Shown here: one piece after another, positions 55,255 to 63,917 of the stretch
How the letters are laid out: each line of letters starts with the position of its first letter
Numbering within the stretch: the stretch's first letter is position 1
Assembly (NCBI GenBank): GCA_028821475.1
Contig: JAPPGB010000054.1
Location: 34,536 to 98,535 of the forward strand
Origin: Spirochaetaceae bacterium
Lineage (GTDB): Bacteria > Spirochaetota > Spirochaetia > SZUA-6 > Bin103
Length of the DNA: 64,000 nt
Direction: 5' to 3'
The notes under the pieces: model-generated
What the model saw: the letters and a program-made list of their open reading frames with translations, nothing else
The model's database searches: none
What the model was told of the DNA's origin: nothing
Translations under genes and position numbers: made by a program

Positions 55255-56213
55255 TTCGGTCGGTCCGCATCCGCGGTTTCAAGTGCTTTCGCGACGCAGA
55301 ATTCCGTTTCCCCGGACACGCCGTGCTGACCGGCTCGAACGACGCCGGCAAGACCACGCTGCTGCAGGCGATCGCGTCCTGGGCGCTCGCCTTGCGGCGC
55401 TGGCGCGAGCTTGGCGACTTCGGGCGCCGCAACGGCTACCGGCGGGCGCCGATCGCCCGGCAGGCGCTCGTCACGGTGCCGCTGCGCAGCTTCGACCTGC
55501 TGTGGCACGACCGCGGTTACCGTGGAGCGATCGAGGTCGAGCTGTGCCACGATAGCGGCTGGTCGGTGGCCATGGAGTTCATCCCCGACACGACGGAGCA
55601 GATCTACGTCCGCCCCCGGCGTGACGCACCCGCCGACACGTTGCGAGAAGTCGATCTGGACGCGGTCTTCATTCCACCGATGACCGGAGTTGGACTGGCG
55701 GAACCGTTGCTGATGCCGCCAAAGGTCGAGCAATCTCTCGGCCTTGGCCGGCCGGGAGAAGTGCTACGCAACCTGCTCGCCGACACTTGCTTAAACGAGC
55801 CCGCATGGGGCGCCCTGCAGGCGACCATCGGTACGCTGTTCGGCTATCGGCTGCTGCGCCCGGAAACCGACATCGCGGACATTGTCGCGGACTACGTGAG
55901 AGATGGGTCGCAAGTGCGGCTGGACATCACGGGCGCGGGCGGCGGCTTCCAACAGGTGCTCCTGCTGCTGGCGTTGCTCAACACCCGCCCCGGCGCCGTG
56001 CTGTTGCTGGACAACCCGGACACCCACCTGCATCCAACCCTGCAGGTTGCCACCTACCGCGAACTGAGAAGCGCGGCGGACCGTTACGGCTCGCAGATCA
56101 TCGCCACCACCCACTCCGAAGCACTCATCAACGCCACCGAGCCACACGAACGGATTGCGATGAAGGACTTCCGGCGGCGGCCGATGGGATCAGATCCGCT
56201 TCGGGGGACGTAA
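55251..56213 (+). CDS. AAA family ATPase (ABC/OLD-like), apparently truncated at the C-terminus
   Basis: 320 aa from a TTG that overlaps the Fic stop. Walker A is GSNDAGKTTLLQAI (about residues 28-41), the ABC-type signature GAGGGFQQVLLLLALL (about 225-240), Walker B VLLLDNPDTHLHP, and the switch THSEAL. The fold is the SMC/OLD-like ATPase. After ERIAMKDF the sequence stops resembling anything and ends in the 3' end of cas6e (24-bp overlap on the other strand), so the usual C-terminal part is missing. It looks like a junction created when the CRISPR locus was inserted. With Fic it may be a defence pair. Confidence 0.82.
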   Translation: MIRSVRIRGFKCFRDAEFRFPGHAVLTGSNDAGKTTLLQAIASWALALRRWRELGDFGRRNGYRRAPIARQALVTVPLRSFDLLWHDRGYRGAIEVELCHDSGWSVAMEFIPDTTEQIYVRPRRDAPADTLREVDLDAVFIPPMTGVGLAEPLLMPPKVEQSLGLGRPGEVLRNLLADTCLNEPAWGALQATIGTLFGYRLLRPETDIADIVADYVRDGSQVRLDITGAGGGFQQVLLLLALLNTRPGAVLLLDNPDTHLHPTLQVATYRELRSAADRYGSQIIATTHSEALINATEPHERIAMKDFRRRPMGSDPLRGT

Positions 56214-56957
56214 CAGGAGCATGCCGTAACCGTAAGCTCGATGCCGGCCCACGCCTCCTCTCAGCCGCCTCGAAAGAACCTCCGGCCTGTCCACTGAGAA
56301 AACGCCCTGCAAGGTCGCGTCAGGGCCCTCCGGACCCGGGCCATCGCCGCGTACCGTACGGCTGCGGATGAATGAAGAAAGGCGGCACTCTTCCAGGGTT
56401 GCGGCGCCTTCCAGCCGCTCCGCCAGCCATGCGGTGTAGACTGCCTCGCGGCGCATGCCATTCTGATTGGCGTGCGCCCTGTGCGCGCGCCAGCCGTCAG
56501 GGAAACGCTGCAGTATGGCCAGCCGGAATGCGTCAACTTCTCGTCCTTGCGCTATGACGCGGCCGTTCTGGGTGTCGTGTAGATCGTGCCTCAACCGACG
56601 TACTGGGCGTACGCGGAGATCGAACCCGAGCCGGCGCCCGGAGTCGAAGAGAGTTGGCATCGGCTTCGAACGCAACCCGATTGGATTGAGCGGTGCAAGG
56701 CAGTCAGGGGGAGCCACCGCTGCGGCCACTTTCAGCAGTTCTCCTCGGTCGACATCAGCGTACGCATAAAGCGATGCGGCCCGCCGCCGCTCGGACCAGA
56801 ACAAGCGGAACGGTTGGAGCGCGCGTTTACCGAACATTGCCGCCAGTAAGATGTGCAGCGCAAAGTCCGGATCGAACGATCCGCGTCGGAGCAGGCCACG
56901 CTCGCCAGCCCAGCGATTGAATTCGCGCATGTCTATTGGAGCGTGGATCAGATACAC
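56190..56957 (-). CDS. cas6e: Type I-E CRISPR RNA endonuclease Cas6e (CasE)
   Basis: 255 aa from a GTG at 56957 (MYLIHAPIDMREFNRWAGER). It contains the glycine-rich RAMP ending GRHRAYGYGMLLLRPP, as in CasE, and the typical ALQPFRLFW and LYAYADVDRG segments. Cas6e cuts the pre-crRNA at the base of each repeat hairpin and stays bound in Cascade. It is the last gene of the operon: cas1 and cas2, which usually follow, are absent. Its 3' end overlaps the convergent ATPase gene. Confidence 0.9.
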   Translation of the reverse strand: MYLIHAPIDMREFNRWAGERGLLRRGSFDPDFALHILLAAMFGKRALQPFRLFWSERRRAASLYAYADVDRGELLKVAAAVAPPDCLAPLNPIGLRSKPMPTLFDSGRRLGFDLRVRPVRRLRHDLHDTQNGRVIAQGREVDAFRLAILQRFPDGWRAHRAHANQNGMRREAVYTAWLAERLEGAATLEECRLSSFIRSRTVRGDGPGPEGPDATLQGVFSVDRPEVLSRRLRGGVGRHRAYGYGMLLLRPPKRI

Positions 56958-56961
56958 CGGA

Positions 56962-57675
56962 TCAACCGTCCGTTGGCGCTGTGACGACGCGGCCTTCACA
57001 CACCGCGCGAGCACCGCCGTGCAGGCCGGTCAACCAGTTGCGCTCGTCGGTCTGGTAGAATGTCCGATCGGCATCGAACGTTCCCTCCGTCGCCGGCCAG
57101 AGTGCGCGGAGCGTCCCGGACGTATTGGCAGCGACTGCGGCTAGTGCGGCGCGCGCGTTCGCCGCATCAACGCAACCTTGAAAGATTGGGGTGGCGGGCA
57201 AACACGACTTACGACCGAGGAACAATGGCCGAGCCGGGCGCACGAACGCGGCCTCCAAATCGGCGAGCGTGGGTTGCTCTTCCACTCGATCAAGTCGGAG
57301 CACCACGGACATGCGCAGGTCTGCGTGATAGTCGCGCCACCGCTGGTGCGCCCCGATATAGGTGCCAGGTCCACCGTCTCGTTGTGCCGGTACCCCACCC
57401 GTGGTCCAAACACGGTCGTCCTTTGCCAGTTGGGCCGTTTGGTAGTCCGTTGTGCGTCCGAGTACCGGTTCCGTCTCACGAATCGCGGCGTACACGATGC
57501 GGCTCTGCAAGTGCTGATGCTGTTCCCGCAACCTGCGGTGCCATCCGAGCGCGTTCGCGATCAGTCCCGTCAGCATGGATTGGCTTGGAAAGTCGCGAGT
57601 GATGCCGTGTGCGTCGATCGCCTCGCCTCCGAACGAGGCGAGTGGCGCACGCAGCCGCAGGTGTATCCAGCGCAC
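56962..57675 (-). CDS. cas5e: Type I-E Cascade subunit Cas5e (CasD)
   Basis: 237 aa RAMP protein. MRWIHLRLRAPLASFGGEAI at the N-terminus, the DFPSQSMLTGLIANALGW region, and RTTDYQTAQL are standard CasD features; the last third has RKSCLPATPIFQG and RTFYQTDERNW. It binds the 5' handle of the crRNA and caps the Cas7 backbone. The start at 57675 overlaps the cas7 stop by one base, and the stop is 4 bp before the cas6e start. Confidence 0.94.
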   Translation of the reverse strand: MRWIHLRLRAPLASFGGEAIDAHGITRDFPSQSMLTGLIANALGWHRRLREQHQHLQSRIVYAAIRETEPVLGRTTDYQTAQLAKDDRVWTTGGVPAQRDGGPGTYIGAHQRWRDYHADLRMSVVLRLDRVEEQPTLADLEAAFVRPARPLFLGRKSCLPATPIFQGCVDAANARAALAAVAANTSGTLRALWPATEGTFDADRTFYQTDERNWLTGLHGGARAVCEGRVVTAPTDG

Positions 57676-58802
57676 TACGCGGTCCCGGTACTAATTGCAG
57701 TACCGGCCCACTGAGATAGTTCCGGGAGCGCAAGGAGTTCTGCTCCCGGCATGGAGGATCCGCTCAAACTCATCACGCGCCGAGACTCACCGGTCGCATA
57801 CGCAGCATCGAGTTGGGCCAAGTGTGCGCACGCCCGTTGTTGCGCCGCCTCGACGGATGGCGGGCACGGATCGCGGAACGCCTCGGCGAGACTTCGAGGC
57901 TGACAGTTACCGGCTTCGATCAAAACCCAACTTGCATAGGCATACGGTGCGGTCGAGCCTAGCTTCGCCCCCGGAGAGACGGTAGCGATGAGGTGTACCA
58001 AGTGTTCGGCAACCGTACCTGCCATCCGGTCGTCGCCGCCAACGTTGTCGAGCAGCATCTTCCGGTCGAGCACAACGTAGCCGTAGAAGAGGCCGGACGT
58101 CAGCTCGGTTTCGCCGATGTGGTCAGCGCCCGGTTCGTCCTCTCCCCGCTGCAGGTCATCAACAACCGTGAAGTAGTCGCTTTCGCTCTCTTCACCATGG
58201 ACGGTGAATGCATGGGCCACGTGCACCGGCGCGTCGAGGTTGGCTTCGACATCGGACGTCACCATGCGACCGAACAGCGCGGCGGCTATGCCACCGGGAA
58301 GCCTGCAATTCTCGCGCAACGCCTTCATGTTCGCTCGTGCAGCCTTTTCCCACTCCTTGGCGGCCTTCTCGGTCGCTTTGGCATCGCTACCGGAAGCGTC
58401 GGCGATTTCTCTGGCCTTGTTCGCCAGGAATCGGATCTCCGGCTCACCAAGCAAGAGCGGCTGCCGGCTGGTTTCCCCTTTCTCCCCGTACACCGCCCTT
58501 TGAAACGCGGCTTCAATCGCTTCGACGGCTTTCGTATCGTAACCCGCCTCAGCGAGGGGACCGATAACTCGTCGCGTGACCGTTTCACGCGACCGCACCC
58601 CGGCGGTAGCACCGTCGATTGCGTGGAGCGAGTGCGGCCCCCCTGCTATTCGCCAATGGCGCTTGAGACACTGCGACGAGATGCGCGTTCGGATCGCTCC
58701 CCCGTAGGTCATGCGCTTGGCGAGCCCGGAGTCGTCGCGATTCAACAACGCGGCTGAGTAGCCATGCAGGCTGTGGATCTGCAGAAAGTTGACGTCTGGC
58801 AT
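57675..58802 (-). CDS. cas7e: Type I-E Cascade backbone Cas7e (CasC)
   Basis: 375 aa. FLQIHSLHGYSAALLNRDDS and AKRMTYGGAIRTRISSQCLK at the N-terminus are diagnostic for CasC, as are ALFGRMVTSDVEANLDAPVH with the thumb-like region and SDYFTVVDDL. Six copies form the crRNA-bound filament of Cascade. An ideal GGAG site precedes the ATG at 58802. It is followed by cas5e with a one-base overlap. Confidence 0.96.
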   Translation of the reverse strand: MPDVNFLQIHSLHGYSAALLNRDDSGLAKRMTYGGAIRTRISSQCLKRHWRIAGGPHSLHAIDGATAGVRSRETVTRRVIGPLAEAGYDTKAVEAIEAAFQRAVYGEKGETSRQPLLLGEPEIRFLANKAREIADASGSDAKATEKAAKEWEKAARANMKALRENCRLPGGIAAALFGRMVTSDVEANLDAPVHVAHAFTVHGEESESDYFTVVDDLQRGEDEPGADHIGETELTSGLFYGYVVLDRKMLLDNVGGDDRMAGTVAEHLVHLIATVSPGAKLGSTAPYAYASWVLIEAGNCQPRSLAEAFRDPCPPSVEAAQQRACAHLAQLDAAYATGESRRVMSLSGSSMPGAELLALPELSQWAGTAISTGTA

Positions 58803-58806
58803 CAGA

Positions 58807-59382
58807 TCAGTTCTCCTGAGTATTCAGTTGGCGCCCGGCTAGAGCCTGGGCGCGGTAGTATTCCTTAGCGATTCTGCGGCCAGCAAAGTCGTCGCCGGAC
58901 AGAACGAAGTTCGCGAGTGTCTTCAGGTCGAAGCGGCGCTGCTCCGCCGCAGCAAGCCGCCGGCACAGACGCACGCTGAGCGTGCGGCGCATCTTCTGGG
59001 GAGCTGTCAACAGACGGGCGAGACGTACCTCGGACACTCCCGCGTCGTGCGCCGCGGCTCCCATGGGAGTGTGCGGATCGTGTACCGACAGGTTGTGATC
59101 GCCTTCGATGCGCCTGCCTTTCGGCGTGAGGATCGCGATTGCCTGGATCAGCATGGCCCAGCCTTCCTCTCGATTCCCCTCCATTTCGAAAGTCGAACCG
59201 TATGTAGCGAGCAACTTCCAGAATGCCGCCGCCCCCGCGCCGTTCCGCGGCCCGCGGCGTAGGGCTGCGGCAGATCCCGGATCAAGTACTGCAATCTCCC
59301 GCGCAAGTCGCGCCACGATCTGACCTAGAGTTAGACTTCCGTCCACATCGGCAGTCGGCCCGTGGTCTCCGTCATGCGTCAT
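58807..59382 (-). CDS. cse2: Type I-E Cascade small subunit Cse2 (CasB, Cas11)
   Basis: 191 aa, helical. Typical patterns are DPGSAAALRRGPRNGAGAAA, FWKLLATYG, and the C-terminal DLKTLANFVLSGDD. It lines the belly of Cascade and holds the non-target strand. The ATG at 59382 has GAGGCAG in front and overlaps the cse1 3' end by 11 bp; an ATG at 59403 is possible but has no ribosome site. Confidence 0.93.
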   Translation of the reverse strand: MTHDGDHGPTADVDGSLTLGQIVARLAREIAVLDPGSAAALRRGPRNGAGAAAFWKLLATYGSTFEMEGNREEGWAMLIQAIAILTPKGRRIEGDHNLSVHDPHTPMGAAAHDAGVSEVRLARLLTAPQKMRRTLSVRLCRRLAAAEQRRFDLKTLANFVLSGDDFAGRRIAKEYYRAQALAGRQLNTQEN

Positions 59383-60967
59383 GGTCTGCCTCGGCGGCAT
59401 CAAAAATCTCTGGTTGGTCGCTGAATACGCTCCGGGATCCGCGCAGCCGCCCCCAGAACGCGCTTACGGCCCGCGCTCGCGCTCGTGGACGCTGGATCGA
59501 AGGACACGGTACCGTTTCGATTGCTTCGTCGAGTAGGCGTTCGGCAACGCGAATCAAGGACCGCACGAATGAAGCGCGGCAACCTCGAACCGCGGCTGGA
59601 TCGTCAGAAGACATAGAGGCTGAATGACGATCCTCCAGAGCGGAGAAGAAGCGTGCGTCCGCTTCAGCGTCGAGACGTCGCGCATACGGGCCGGCATGGA
59701 TCCGGTGCGCCCTTGTCAGTTCGTTGGCATCCCTGCCGCCTCCGGCGGCTACTGCTATTCCGAAACGTAGCGCCTTCATCACGTCCTCCACTTCTTCCAA
59801 TTGCGCCTGAGCGGCTTTTGCGAGCGTGTTGCTTTCACCTGTCCTGCCTAGCGCACTGACGGTTGATGGGGCGAAAGCGATGTCGGTCCGCTCGTGGTAG
59901 CCGTCGGTCTTGCCTTGGCCGGCAGCCACTCCGCGAGCGATCAACCGCCACCGCTCGTCTCTCTTCGAGTCCACATGCATAGCCGGAGGGAGGTGGAATG
60001 TAGTGCGATCGAACGCGATCTTGGCTAGCCGATCATACCGGAAGCCAGAAGAGGACAGAGACAGCCCCTTGTTGTCTGAGGTACGGACCGGTGTCCAGAA
60101 ATCGCCAATGTCCCCGCCCGCCATCTTTGCGTAAACACGCGGTGCGCGCGACGGCGCTGTCCGTGCCACCAAGCTCCCACGGTTCGACGAGAGCCGAATG
60201 CGACGGCAGATTTCAATGAAGTACGGGTCAAGGACGCGGAGAGCCAGTGAGTCGGTCCCATCCCATGGCTCCAGCCATGTGAGCGCTACGCCGGCATTGG
60301 GCCGAAAGTAGTCGGGATAGTTGTCCAGTAGTGCATCGCGTCCGGCGAGCATCCGCTTGATATCGAAGCAGATATGCGCACCGAGCCCGCCGACGGCGGG
60401 CGCCAAGCCCACACACGGACGCGAGGAGTACCCTCCGTTCATCCGTGCGATCGGATAGTTCCCGGCGCCCAGATACCCGCCCATAGTTTGCAGATCGATC
60501 AACGCGAACAGCCAGTCTTCCGGCGCGGCTTGCAAAGCGGTCGTCTGCTTGATGTCGTGATTCTTCGCACTCACCAGGAGGTCGAGGTCATCCGGTGAGC
60601 GCTTCCAGCCGCGATAGTGTTGGAGCCCCTGTGGTGCCGGGCATTGCATGAATGCCGGCTCGCCGGGTTCGTCGACGACAAGGCTCCACGGTTGATCATC
60701 CGCGAACCCCGGTGTGGTTCCTCGCAGCAGGCTCCGCCATTCGTCGGCTGACTCCACAGGATCCCGCCAACCTGCCCGGTGGAGCGCGATCGCACCCGAC
60801 TGGCACAGGAACGCGTGAAGAGCGTGGCGTTGATGAGGGCGCAGGGCCGGGAACGCAGCAACTCGGTCCGCGGTCAACGCGGAGTAGACGTCTGGGAGGG
60901 ACAGGTGCGCGGCGCTCCCATCCGCGAGTTGCACTCGGATCAGCGGATCGACGAGGAGGTTATACAC
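59372..60967 (-). CDS. cse1: Type I-E Cascade large subunit Cse1 (CasA, Cas8e)
   Basis: 531 aa from GTG at 60967 (MYNLLVDPLIRVQLADG, the typical Cse1 opening). Conserved stretches include RPHQRHALHAFLCQ, FMQCPAPQGLQ, NHDIKQTTALQAAPEDW, the segment GGYLGAGNYPIARMNGGYSS, and the C-terminal four-helix bundle. It recognises the PAM and recruits Cas3. A longer start at 60991 is possible; it would lie inside the CRISPR-repeat-like hairpin. The 319-bp gap to the cas3 stop holds its own promoter and the crRNA-like element. Confidence 0.94.
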   Translation of the reverse strand: MYNLLVDPLIRVQLADGSAAHLSLPDVYSALTADRVAAFPALRPHQRHALHAFLCQSGAIALHRAGWRDPVESADEWRSLLRGTTPGFADDQPWSLVVDEPGEPAFMQCPAPQGLQHYRGWKRSPDDLDLLVSAKNHDIKQTTALQAAPEDWLFALIDLQTMGGYLGAGNYPIARMNGGYSSRPCVGLAPAVGGLGAHICFDIKRMLAGRDALLDNYPDYFRPNAGVALTWLEPWDGTDSLALRVLDPYFIEICRRIRLSSNRGSLVARTAPSRAPRVYAKMAGGDIGDFWTPVRTSDNKGLSLSSSGFRYDRLAKIAFDRTTFHLPPAMHVDSKRDERWRLIARGVAAGQGKTDGYHERTDIAFAPSTVSALGRTGESNTLAKAAQAQLEEVEDVMKALRFGIAVAAGGGRDANELTRAHRIHAGPYARRLDAEADARFFSALEDRHSASMSSDDPAAVRGCRASFVRSLIRVAERLLDEAIETVPCPSIQRPRARARAVSAFWGRLRGSRSVFSDQPEIFDAAEADHDA

Positions 60968-61223
60968 CCCGCATCTCTGTTCTGTCCCCACGAAGGCGGG
61001 GAGTCGTACGTCGAATCTTGTCTATCTGCCCTCCACAAGGGTCAATCTCCGAGTCAGTCGGAGGATCGCTGAGTGTTCCGGTCTCGAATCGAATCTCGGT
61101 ATAACTACGGCATTCGGATGACCTGCGCTCCGCACGGCGGACCACATGGTTGCCGATGATCGTTTCTTCGTCGACGAAACTCTCGGTCCGATGTGACTTG
61201 ATCCCTGTTAGTACTCTCTTCAT
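60960..61223 (-). CDS. Dubious 87-aa ORF across the crRNA-like element
   Basis: An ATG at 61223 with AGCAGG upstream begins MKRVLTGIKSHRTESFVDEE and runs through both repeat-like hairpins to a TAA that overlaps the cse1 GTG (GTGTATAA). No family is recognised. Translation through it would couple to cse1 and would compete with folding of the hairpins, so a regulatory leader is conceivable. More likely it is a fortuitous frame. Confidence 0.3.
   Translation of the reverse strand: MKRVLTGIKSHRTESFVDEETIIGNHVVRRAERRSSECRSYTEIRFETGTLSDPPTDSEIDPCGGQIDKIRRTTPRLRGDRTEMRGV
60977..61067 (-). ncRNA. crRNA-like element: two CRISPR-repeat-like hairpins around a 33-nt spacer
   Basis: Read on the minus strand: repeat-like 1 (61067-61039) has a hairpin CTCCGA/TCGGAG and a 3' end GATTGACCC; a 33-nt interval (61038-61006) follows; repeat-like 2 (61005-60977) has a hairpin CCCCGC-CTTC-GTGGGG. 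Repeat-like 2 has the classical type I-E form (T-CCCCGC-loop-G-x-GGGGA), and repeat-like 1 keeps the typical 3' handle. I set the 29-nt frame of repeat 1 by aligning the hairpin left arms; 29 nt and 33 nt are the standard I-E repeat and spacer lengths. The element lies in the leader of cse1-cse2-cas7-cas5-cas6e. Its spacer matches the promoter at 61231-61263. Confidence 0.7.
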
Positions 61224-61230
61224 CCTGCTC

Positions 61231-61263
61231 TCTTGATCGCCCCTATCTATCAGACCTACACAA
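61231..61263 (-). promoter_or_regulatory. Predicted target site of the crRNA-like guide
   Basis: On the minus strand this site starts just after AAC (61266-61264), a possible PAM, and shares 17 of its first 22 bases with the 33-nt spacer of the element 170 bp downstream. Mismatches are at positions 6, 10, 12, 19 and 21; beyond 22 there is no similarity. Positions 6 and 12 are flipped out and not read in type I-E guides. Its 5' bases overlap the presumed -10. Confidence 0.65.
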
Positions 61264-61290
61264 GTTATGGTCTATTGGATCCAGAGTCAA
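61262..61290 (-). promoter_or_regulatory. Presumed promoter of cse1-cas6e
   Basis: TTGACT (61290-61285), overlapping the cas3 stop, and TAACTT (61267-61262) are 17 bp apart. The -35 is good, the -10 weak. The resulting leader to cse1 would be about 290 nt. Confidence 0.5.
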
Positions 61291-63917
61291 GCCGCGGGCT
61301 CATCTGCTTCGTGCACTCCGCATCGGTCATATTCGAACACGCGGCCGGCGACCTTCAGGACCAGCCCTTTCGATGTACGATCGACGTAGACAGCCTCGAT
61401 CTCTTCTTTGGTCGGCAACCCGCCGCCGTGCCGCAGAAAGAAATGCGCGGGAAGATTGAACGTACGGACGGCCTCTCCAAACGGCCCTGGTTCAGGCCTA
61501 GCAAGCTCAATGCGCGGCCCATCATCGCCGAGTCGCGTACGTACCTTTTCGTCGAGGTCCGGAAACACGAGGGCTTCGTCGAATGGGGTGTTCCGATCAA
61601 GGAGGTGCCTCCGGGCCATACCGCGCTCGGCGGCGGCGAAGCCGACAGTCTGTTGTTCGTGTTCCACCCATGGCCCGCCGAGTTCGGCGGCCAAGGCGCG
61701 CAACGCCTCCTCATGGGTGGCCTGCTCCACCAGCATGCGGTTCATGGCCGGTACCTCCCACATCGGGTGTTCAGCGACTAGGCGGTGAGCCGCCTCAAGT
61801 CCGAGCAGGTCGCGATAGATCCCTCCGCCATCGCTGGCAGCCCCGAGCCCGTAACGCAAGAGCTCGCCGGCGAGGCCAGCAACCAAGCCTTCCTCTGGCA
61901 TCAGCACGGTGCAGCGCGGCGTAGTGAACGCTGCGGCGCGCTGCGCTTCGCGGTGGCGGTGCAGGCGTCCGATGCGTTGCAGGAGTACGTCCACCGGGCA
62001 GATGTCGGAGATGAGCACGTCGGCATCGATGTCGAGCGACTGCTCCAGAGTCTGCGTACCGATCACGACCACTCCACCGTCGGCGCGTCCCTTCCCGAGC
62101 GCTCGTTCGACGGCACTATCCAGGAGGAGCCGATCCTCCGCCGCAAAGCGACTGTGATGGAGCGCTGGCCCGTCGGCTGCCTGGAGCGTCAACGCGCTAC
62201 CGCCCTGGTTCTCGACGGCGTGGAACACCGCCTGAGCCTCCCTGACGGTGTTGCGAACCACGAGCACCTTGCCCCCCTTCCGTCCAGACGCGAGAGCGAG
62301 TTCGGCGATCCGGTCGGCGTCGCTGATGCATGGTTCAGTGCACATCTCAACCGCCTTGGAATGGCCGCTGTCCGAGAGGCCAAGCGTCTCCGCCGCCCCG
62401 TGCCCAGCCAGCGTTAGCGCTGGATAGGGAATCGCTTCCATGATGGCCAGTGGTGGAAGTTCGGTCCGTTCGGTCCGGGGGCGATGATCGGTCAATGCTG
62501 CCCGAGCGGCCGACCCAAGCGTTGCCGACATCAACAAGGCATGGCCGCCCACTGCCAAGTGGTCGCGTAGGAGCGCTCCCACCAACTCCATCATGTACGC
62601 GTCGCTGGCATGCGCCTCATCGACTACAAGCAGACTGCGTGAGAGCGCACTACCCCGCAAGTGCGCCCACTTCACCTTGAGCGCGGCAAGCAGGACTTGA
62701 TCAACCGTCCCCACTGCGGCAGCGGAATTCAAGAAACGACGAGAGCTCTCCGCGGACCAGCGGGCGCGCCGAGTCGATTCGTCCCTTGGCTCGTCCTCCC
62801 ACTCGACCTCGAACTTCCCGACCCGGCGGGCAGTGACGGTTCCGGCCTTGAGATAACCTGGGATGGCGAGCACGGTTTCTGCGCGAGTTTCAGGCGCGAA
62901 CAATCGGCGTAGTGACGCGTCCAGTCGGCGCTGCAATTGCTTAGCTGCCGCGCGCGTCGGAACCGCGAAGTAGAGTCCGTCTACGAGTCCGGCACGCCAC
63001 AGCGTACTAAACCGCAATGCGGCGGCTTCGGTCTTTCCCGATCCGGTCTCACTTTCCAGCACCAGCAACGGCCAAGAAAGCGGGGCGTCGGCCACCGCCG
63101 TCTGCAGTGGACGCGGCGCGGGATGATCGAACAGGTCGGCGAAGGTGACGGCTGGTGATTGCCGGCGCCAATCTCGCCGGCGCAACAGGCGCGCCTCGAT
63201 CGCGCTCTTGGCAAGTCGATGTGCTTGCTCGATGTAGTTGGGGTCCGGCTCCGGAACAAAGTGGAACTGTTCCTCGTCCGAACCGATCTGATCCGCAAGC
63301 GCCACGGCTCCGGCCAAGAGGTGAGCCAGCGCCGGCGACTCAGGCAACGGGGGTCCGTCGGCGAAGGAGTCAGGAAACCAGAGCCGAATTCGATCGCCGA
63401 ACCGCTTCGCTGCCGCAAGGGGGTCGTAGCCGGCGTACGGCTTCCAAAGCGCTGGCGGGCCGGTGCCGGACCGATGGCGTGTCTTTGCCGGACGACCGTG
63501 GTGAGCCAGACTTGCACGAAGTAGCGGTAGGAACCCGTCGCCCCACGTGTCGTACATTGCGTGAAGCCCGATCGCTTCGCACATATCCTCTTGCTGACAA
63601 CACAGTAGCGCTTGCTCGACGTGACCGGCACGGGGCGGCGGTCCCGGCGGCAGTTCGGCCCGGTCGAACACCTTGAATTGAAATCCGGCGTTGAGCTTGC
63701 CGAAGTCGTGCAGGAATGCCAGAACGGCCAGCCTTGCAGCAGACACCTGATCGATGCGGTGCTGTCCGGCCGCCCGTTCGAACCGAGCCCGAACGACGGG
63801 ATCAGCCAGCAACGCCTGGAAGCACGCCGCCACGTCGGCGCAATGGTGCTCCAGACAGTGAAAGCACGCCGGTGACTCAAACTTCCCCCAAGGGTGATGG
63901 GTGCTGCTATAATTCAC
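61287..63917 (-). CDS. cas3: Type I-E CRISPR nuclease-helicase Cas3
   Basis: 876 aa. N-terminal HD nuclease: LEHHCADVA (first His), AFLHDFGKLNAGFQ with the dyad at H70-D71, and SLAHHGRP. SF2 helicase: Walker A ETGSGKTEAA (about residue 290), VPTRAAAKQL, motif II VVDEAHASD, LMSATLG, and the C-terminal RecA domain with GTQTLEQSLDIDADVLISD and LLQRIGRLHRH. It ends with a Cas3 C-terminal domain. Cas3 is recruited by Cascade to degrade target DNA. The GTG at 63917 is the start; no clear ribosome site is seen. The 83 bp upstream to the window edge hold neither a repeat nor a gene I can read. Confidence 0.95.
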   Translation of the reverse strand: MNYSSTHHPWGKFESPACFHCLEHHCADVAACFQALLADPVVRARFERAAGQHRIDQVSAARLAVLAFLHDFGKLNAGFQFKVFDRAELPPGPPPRAGHVEQALLCCQQEDMCEAIGLHAMYDTWGDGFLPLLRASLAHHGRPAKTRHRSGTGPPALWKPYAGYDPLAAAKRFGDRIRLWFPDSFADGPPLPESPALAHLLAGAVALADQIGSDEEQFHFVPEPDPNYIEQAHRLAKSAIEARLLRRRDWRRQSPAVTFADLFDHPAPRPLQTAVADAPLSWPLLVLESETGSGKTEAAALRFSTLWRAGLVDGLYFAVPTRAAAKQLQRRLDASLRRLFAPETRAETVLAIPGYLKAGTVTARRVGKFEVEWEDEPRDESTRRARWSAESSRRFLNSAAAVGTVDQVLLAALKVKWAHLRGSALSRSLLVVDEAHASDAYMMELVGALLRDHLAVGGHALLMSATLGSAARAALTDHRPRTERTELPPLAIMEAIPYPALTLAGHGAAETLGLSDSGHSKAVEMCTEPCISDADRIAELALASGRKGGKVLVVRNTVREAQAVFHAVENQGGSALTLQAADGPALHHSRFAAEDRLLLDSAVERALGKGRADGGVVVIGTQTLEQSLDIDADVLISDICPVDVLLQRIGRLHRHREAQRAAAFTTPRCTVLMPEEGLVAGLAGELLRYGLGAASDGGGIYRDLLGLEAAHRLVAEHPMWEVPAMNRMLVEQATHEEALRALAAELGGPWVEHEQQTVGFAAAERGMARRHLLDRNTPFDEALVFPDLDEKVRTRLGDDGPRIELARPEPGPFGEAVRTFNLPAHFFLRHGGGLPTKEEIEAVYVDRTSKGLVLKVAGRVFEYDRCGVHEADEPAA

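Follow-up and report, generated by a model that had tools for sequence, protein, structure and literature searches.

A putative CreR-like self-guide nested in a leader reading frame between cas3 and cse1 of a Spirochaetaceae type I-E locus

The gap between cas3 and cse1 of a Spirochaetaceae type I-E locus probably harbors a CreR-like self-guide, in which two derivatives of the host's own CRISPR repeat flank a guide that Cas6e would cut from the leader of the cse1-cas6e transcript, and with which Cascade would repress the promoter of that same transcript. The parts of this picture directly visible in the DNA are the likeness of the flanking repeats to the host's array, the 61-nt spacing, the match between guide and target next to a PAM, the joint change of guide and target among related loci, and the nesting of the unit in an open reading frame (ORF). 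Such a self-guide had been put forward in the original prediction, and the agreement with the host's own array together with the joint change of guide and target supports that reading at the level of sequence comparison. Throughout, the window is the whole stretch of DNA that was analyzed (64 kb), and positions are counted from its first base.

The guide unit and its target in the window

The end of the window is the end of contig C54 (98,535 bases), and its final 8 kb carry, on the minus strand, cas3, a 319-nt gap, cse1, a cse2-sized gene, cas7, cas5 and cas6e; all window features described below are on this strand. The cas3 gene (61287..63917; HD nuclease and helicase) scores above the cut-offs of the NCBIfam models cas3_core and cas3_HD. 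For cse1/casA (59372..60967, start GTG at 60967) the TIGR02547 score is 68.6 bits, just below the cut-off of 70.05, and its homologues carry PF09481. The gene at 58807..59403 is called cse2 by position and size only: it has no NCBIfam match, and PF09485 has no match anywhere in the genome; the small subunit encoded there is very divergent or different. The genes cas7/casC (57675..58802; TIGR01869) and cas5/casD (56962..57675; TIGR01868) follow, and cas6e/casE (56190..57014), the expected processing nuclease, was assigned from its operon position and a TIGR01907 score of 33.4 bits, which is below the cut-off of 45.2. The genes cas1 and cas2e and a CRISPR array (36 repeat-core matches) are found near the end of another contig, C69 (18,577 bases). 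Both cas3 and cas1 start about 200 nt or less from the end of their contig (window 63917-64000 for cas3); C54 and C69 may adjoin there, and cas1, cas2 and the array would then be divergent from cas3.

The array on C69 provides the reference for the unit. Its repeat ends in CCCCGTACACGCGGGGATAGACC and reads in crRNA direction as GGTTTCCCCGTACACGCGGGGATAGACC plus a 29th base; among 35 exact copies this base is C 27 times, T 5 times and G 3 times. The period is 61 nt with two exceptions (62 and 55). In type I-E systems the last repeat base derives from the PAM, and the preponderance of C and T at the 29th base therefore suggests AAC or AAT as the PAM.

When the cas3-cse1 gap was compared with this array, we found a degenerate repeat, psi-repeat 1 (61039..61067), with a degenerate hairpin (61063-61047) and the 5' handle ATTGACCC (61046-61039), followed by a 32-nt guide or psi-spacer (61007..61038) that matches its own gap, and by psi-repeat 2 (60978..61006), whose hairpin (61001-60986) is the predicted 3' end of the guide RNA and whose handle is degenerate. 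The handle of psi-repeat 1 agrees with the array handle ATAGACCC in 6 of 7 positions, the 16-nt hairpin of psi-repeat 2, CCCCGCCTTCGTGGGG, has the length of the array hairpin CCCCGTACACGCGGGG, and the distance from handle to handle is 61 nt, the usual period of the array. The comparison of both hairpins with the genomic array, which had been proposed as a check, thus came out in favor of the unit. The two repeat-like hairpins predicted around an interval in this gap are indeed present, while the predicted interval length of 33 nt is corrected to 32 nt. Folded singly, both psi-repeats are more stable than shuffled sequences (z -2.9 and -2.6); the 104-nt unit as a whole folds no better than shuffles (z -0.05), and the whole-unit fold was dropped as support. 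With two divergent repeats and a guide against its own gap, rather than identical repeats and foreign spacers, the unit is not an ordinary type I-E array; like CreR, it is a repeat-spacer-repeat-like unit outside the array, derived from the host's own CRISPR repeat.

The target (61242..61266) is located 203 nt upstream of the guide and consists of the PAM AAC (61266-61264) and the seed side of the protospacer (61263-61242). We reproduced the predicted match of 17 out of the first 22 guide positions, with mismatches at 6, 10, 12, 19 and 21; similarity ends near position 22. Without positions 6, 12 and 18 the guide scores 16/19, a value reached by none of 4000 dinucleotide-shuffled guides (five reached 15), and the next best match in the 64-kb window scores 13. 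The 15-base core of the match, searched with at most one mismatch, occurs in the 5.73-Mb assembly only at the guide and the target; with two mismatches, two more places appear. The target overlaps the -10-like box of a promoter-like site, TTGACT-N17-TAACTT (61262..61290), predicted to serve the leader and cse1. A stricter consensus promoter scan found no promoter in this region of the window, and the site comes from a looser, simple weight score applied afterwards, which is weaker evidence: it is the top of the region at 10.2 (next promoter-like site, 6.5), a score matched by 2 of 100 shuffles. The cas3 stop codon TGA (ending at 61287) falls within its -35-like hexamer. The guide thus has, as in CreR, partial seed-side complementarity to a cas promoter beside a PAM, the promoter being one predicted by weight score.

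Units and targets in related type I-E loci

Among the host's near relatives, Cse1 was found in 1 of 392 and 1 of 118 genomes, each time the host itself, so that close relatives are visible as proteins only. A Cse1 alignment search of 84,980 species genomes gave 80 loci (best 80 of 81). Together with the window this makes 81, and in 77 of them the distance from cse1 to the upstream gene could be measured: it is at least 200 bp in 34 and less in 43, while the remaining four are without upstream sequence or without a plus-strand gene there. (In L060 the upstream gene was not recognized as cas3, and the gap was taken as 700 bp.) In the 34 long gaps all 77 handles of the form ATnnnCCn were taken as candidates, with the next 32 nt as the guide and its best match in the same gap as the target. 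A unit was called when such a handle scored at least 13 of 19 scored positions next to AAC, AAT, AGT, AAG or AAA. By this criterion, which including its PAM list was set up after a first look at the loci, 19 of the 34 long-gap loci (gap of at least 200 bp; best 80 of 81 plus the window) contain a unit, one per locus, with AAC in 12, AAT in 6 and AGT in 1. A score of at least 13 as such was reached by 36 of the 77 sense handles and by 19 of 75 antisense handles; only one of the latter had a listed PAM, and it belongs to a genuine unit in reverse orientation, in L048. Shuffling all gaps three times (64, 92 and 54 handles) gave 1, 2 and 0 units by the criterion. Short-gap loci served as controls: in the 16 of 43 that were tested there were three hairpin-handle candidates, none with an AAC or AAT match. 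The reversed unit of L048 lies about 430-560 nt before cse1, on the opposite strand to it, and its guide has a strong target match beside AAT.

The guides of the 19 loci are all different. On their own gap they score 13-18 (median 15), and on foreign gaps 9-15, with 13 or more in 62 of 627 comparisons, which indicates that each guide changes in step with its target. Searches at family and order level, centered on two other carriers (121 and 347 genomes, with a match in 5 and 8), contributed eight further loci. Five have a long gap (at least 200 bp), and among these five L117, L120 and L121 (PAM AAT, AAC and AAT) carry a unit by the same criterion. In L125 a unit is present with no target found in the gap, and in L128 no unit was found. 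The expectation that spacer and promoter site would vary together in related loci is thus borne out in 19 of 34 and 3 of 5 loci. Seven of the 19 loci score 13-14, which by score alone is within shuffle range (13 in 20 and 14 in 3 of 210 shuffled handles; region-wide pairs reach up to 16), so in those seven the handle, hairpins and PAM carry the case. Of the 15 long-gap loci below the criterion, L048, L063 and L065 carry a unit on inspection: L063 scores 12 with AAC, and L065, with the handle GTAGTCCC and coordinates that are approximate (a few to 16 nt off), scores 16 with AAT. The records of the long-gap loci are labelled Acidobacteria/Thermoanaerobaculia, Gemmatimonadetes, and Alpha- and Gammaproteobacteria; among the carriers of this layout are Rhodoblastus acidophilus DSM 142 (L057) and Azospirillum picis (L054).

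The mismatches are not evenly spread. Position 6 is mismatched in 18, position 12 in 14 and position 18 in 14 of the 19 loci, and positions 1-5 and 7-11 together show 13 mismatches out of 190. Positions 6, 12 and 18 were unscored in this first count. In a recount that scored all positions and applied no PAM filter, position 6 had a mismatch in 26 of 42 rows, its neighbors 5 and 7 in only 9 and 8, and the excess at position 12 persisted (18 against 6 and 7). Pairing at positions 1-5 and 7-11 is described for H. hubeiense CreA in the available parts of PMC8501985. The two psi-repeats have been kept unequally. Identity to the locus's own array, in 16 loci, is 89% for the psi-repeat 1 handle and 59% for its hairpin, 40% for the psi-repeat 2 handle and 76% for its hairpin, the last figure being lowered by the psi-repeats 2 of L034 and L035, which were aligned out of register; that of L089 was also set out of register. 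The better-kept halves are the parts that a mature crRNA needs, and the same asymmetry is reported for creA (PMC8501985, in the portions available). A testable rule follows from this survey: guide and promoter site should covary, while positions 6, 12 and 18 are free to differ.

Guides of 20 nt instead of 32 were observed upstream of cse1 in L034, L035, L063 and L120. The 12 missing nt equal two 6-nt steps of the Cas7 ladder and preserve the frame of the ORF described below, and these guides offer natural cases of a shortened Cascade. In L035, three consecutive psi-repeats and two guides occupy the region about 80-215 nt before cse1; guide 1 has a target in the gap (17/19, AAT) and the best match of guide 2 scores 11.

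A CreR-like unit was also noticed in the cas3-casA gap of E. coli K-12, antisense to casA (L114:3987-4063; NC_000913.3, about 2884486-2884562). It consists of a hairpin, the handle ATAAACCG, which we take to be the exact E. coli CRISPR handle, a guide-like stretch, and a second hairpin that runs into the end of cas3. Over its first seven scored positions the guide agrees with a site next to AAG within this gap; the score of 13 by itself is not above chance, being reached by 708 of 2000 shuffles, and by 62 of 2000 when a usable PAM must also be adjacent. Of 5426 E. coli genomes, 1123 carry the stretch over at least 80% of its length. Strain P276M retains the seed in both guide and site, with a difference at guide position 12 and greater divergence in the DNA that surrounds the site.

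The leader reading frame and the source of the guide

In 16 of the 19 unit loci, and in the three later ones (L117, L120 and L121), the unit is on the strand of cse1 and nearer to that gene than the target, which is upstream. The order is reversed in L089, L090 and L104, where the unit is upstream of its own target, and the leader form is therefore not universal. In L090, 134-211 nt before cse1, the two hairpins are undegenerated and equal those of its own array, and this unit is possibly a young CreR. In 18 of 19 loci the top-scoring promoter-like site is no more than 60 nt from the target, compared with 6.3 loci expected from shuffles and 10 of 19 in an antisense control. This position, together with the short distance from psi-repeat 2 to cse1 given below, is in keeping with the prediction that the unit sits in the leader of the transcript it would regulate. 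The further claim that placement in the leader is a new arrangement cannot be upheld, since it is the common form in these loci.

The leader of the window contains an 87-codon ORF (60960..61223) that was absent from the earlier reading. It starts 40 nt past the first base of the target, contains the whole guide unit, and its stop overlaps the cse1 start. The leader loci show the same plan: an open frame starts past the target, crosses both repeats and the guide, and ends at the start of cse1. With a Shine-Dalgarno-like start and at least 60 codons required, such an ORF is present in 13 of 16 leader loci with room for it (0.65 expected from shuffles), a count that leaves out L060 and L066, which have no room, and includes L063 and L065 (the ORF of L065 is unaffected by its approximate coordinates). 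With the three later loci included, it is found in 16 of 19 in sense (66-99 codons) and in 0 of 19 in antisense direction. When no Shine-Dalgarno match is required the number rises to 18 of 19, the exception being L064; the window ORF has a weak Shine-Dalgarno match and for this reason does not count among the 16.

The peptide of the window ORF has six relatives (P0123-P0128) with 65-87% identity over 98-100% of the query, which keep most of the N-terminal 48 residues and of the repeat-coded stretches. The residues coded by guide positions 1-4 and 8-10 are constant in them, whereas positions 5-7 encode G, A or E, and positions 11-13 encode Q, R, L or S; except for the S, each of these could be explained by a change at position 6 or 12 alone, as read from amino acids and not DNA. 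Later guide-coded residues also vary (I/M, and two in P0125), and four of the six (P0124, P0126, P0127 and P0128) have four residues fewer in the guide-coded part, corresponding to a 20-nt guide. The modelled window peptide has four strands in its N-terminal 48 residues (pLDDT 72-78 in the first 40, mean 62); a fold search found no PDB match at E<=0.001, and the ORF has no NCBIfam match. Beyond the relatives, a search of the L057 leader ORF against a 5.8-billion set gave no homologue, and in pairwise tests of the peptides only the pair L039-L040 stands out (z 6.9). Two suggested likenesses were rejected: a motif seen by eye that linked the window peptide to peptides of other phyla was unsupported by hmmsearch, and the likeness among the L056, L057 and L062 peptides (z 4.5-6.1) fell to 7-12 residues after the guide-coded parts were removed. 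Since the peptides of different clades are not clearly homologous, it may be translation, rather than the peptide, that counts.

The ORF also bears on the first of three rival explanations, an addiction arrangement of CreTA or CrePA type, in which the repressed promoter would mainly serve the leader ORF, with a product toxic without Cascade, and the cas genes would follow. Of the 18 leader loci with an ORF, 16 have its start 36-120 nt past the first base of the target (the other two are L034, at 7 nt, and L035, at 224 nt), which would suit such a gene, as would the six relatives of the window peptide, and a known creTA in a cas intergenic region has a strong promoter for the downstream cas genes, according to the portion of PMC9458426 at hand. 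In CreTA the target promoter drives a small toxic RNA or a mini-ORF with rare codons; in the leaders, listed for Shine-Dalgarno-started ORFs only, the common find was the 66-99-codon ORF. Against a toxin gene, however, this ORF crosses the guide up to the cse1 start, an odd location for a toxin, and has no clear homology between clades; L060 and L066, with only 13-14 nt from target to psi-repeat 1, have no space for a toxin gene, and they and L064 have no such ORF. We consider an addiction function unlikely.

Less probable still is that the guide RNA has its own promoter between target and unit, in which case cse1 would still be repressed, the leader would not be the source of the guide, and the loop would not be self-contained. 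There is room for a promoter in the leader loci except L060 and L066 (117-357 nt from target to unit), and the units of L089, L090, L104 and L048 lie outside the repressed leader. However, in 13 of the 14 leader-type loci measured in register the end of psi-repeat 2 and the start of cse1 are separated by 11-34 nt (54 nt in L064; in L035 the last hairpin is about 83 nt before cse1), which leaves little space for a separate terminator, and a promoter of the unit would then drive cse1 too. In addition, the target adjoins the unit in L060 and L066, and the window's next promoter-like site scores far below the one at the target (6.5 against 10.2). A functionless decayed mini-array or chance likeness is very improbable: both repeats are degenerate, the whole-unit fold is unremarkable and loci at 13-14 are not above shuffles by score alone, but the kept halves are those of a mature crRNA, guide and target change jointly in 19 of 34 and 3 of 5 loci, and none of the 4000 shuffled guides equals that of the window.

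Proposed feedback loop and known systems

Under the preferred reading, a CreR-like self-guide cut from the leader, transcription would start at the target site, pass through the leader with the guide and go on into cse1-cas6e. Cas6e cleavage in both repeats would free the guide RNA, and Cascade would load it, bind its own promoter and repress it. Binding by Cascade to a short match without cutting is established for type I-E and for CreA, and because similarity ends near position 22, Cascade would be expected to bind here without cutting by Cas3. The promoter would reopen when array crRNAs or anti-CRISPR proteins take Cascade away. Ribosomes on the leader ORF would cross the guide and hand over to cse1, so that each transcript would have one of two fates, cleavage into a guide or use as a coupled messenger. 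A tentative extension, to which we give somewhat less than an even chance, is that ribosome and Cas6e compete for the one RNA: translation would shield the guide and feed cse1, and a win for Cas6e would free the CreR, destroy the leader ORF and cut the messenger about 20 nt before cse1. If this is true, one transcript gives either Cascade or its repressor, in a loop with two layers, promoter and messenger, and any attack by which translation is stalled would trigger a response as well. The nested ORF points to control of Cascade expression at both of these levels, and it would explain how cse1 is still translated from a leader that Cas6e cuts. RNA-guided self-control of CRISPR is likely common in type I-E loci with a long cas3-cse1 gap.

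The primary CreR (cas-regulating RNA) paper reportedly appeared in Cell Host Microbe in 2023. CreR has been reported for types I-B, I-E and V-A in the parts available of PMC13131331, PMC12737573 and PMC12948488; since type I-E is already covered there (PMC13131331), the mechanism as such is not new. The crRNA-like unit, the partial match to a cas promoter and the repression by the system's own effector, which is predicted here, are shared with CreR as it is described in these excerpts, and the review among them states that the promoter opens again when array crRNAs or anti-CRISPR proteins occupy Cascade (PMC12737573). Unlike CreR as described there, the window unit is embedded in an ORF that opens downstream of the promoter predicted to be repressed and extends to the start of cse1. 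In the excerpts consulted, neither an ORF enclosing a CreR unit nor a position in the leader is mentioned. CreA of CreTA is alike in its two divergent repeats, with the handle kept in repeat 1 and the 3' part in repeat 2 (PMC8501985, in part); the CreA target precedes an RNA toxin, whereas the window target precedes the leader ORF and cse1, and the CreTA mini-ORF contrasts with the 66-99-codon ORF here. In CrePA, where CreA represses a protein toxin, a protein-coding ORF likewise follows directly behind the repressed promoter (available part of PMC12737573), but the leader ORF here also contains the guide and overlaps or adjoins cse1. As far as the sequences tell, it is this nesting of the guide in an ORF that would set the present case apart from known CreR. 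We know of no coupled leader ORF that holds a CRISPR guide; the proposed translational coupling has a counterpart in the iraD leader ORF of E. coli, a short upstream ORF coupled to the next gene, as described in the portion of PMC5574718 that was available.
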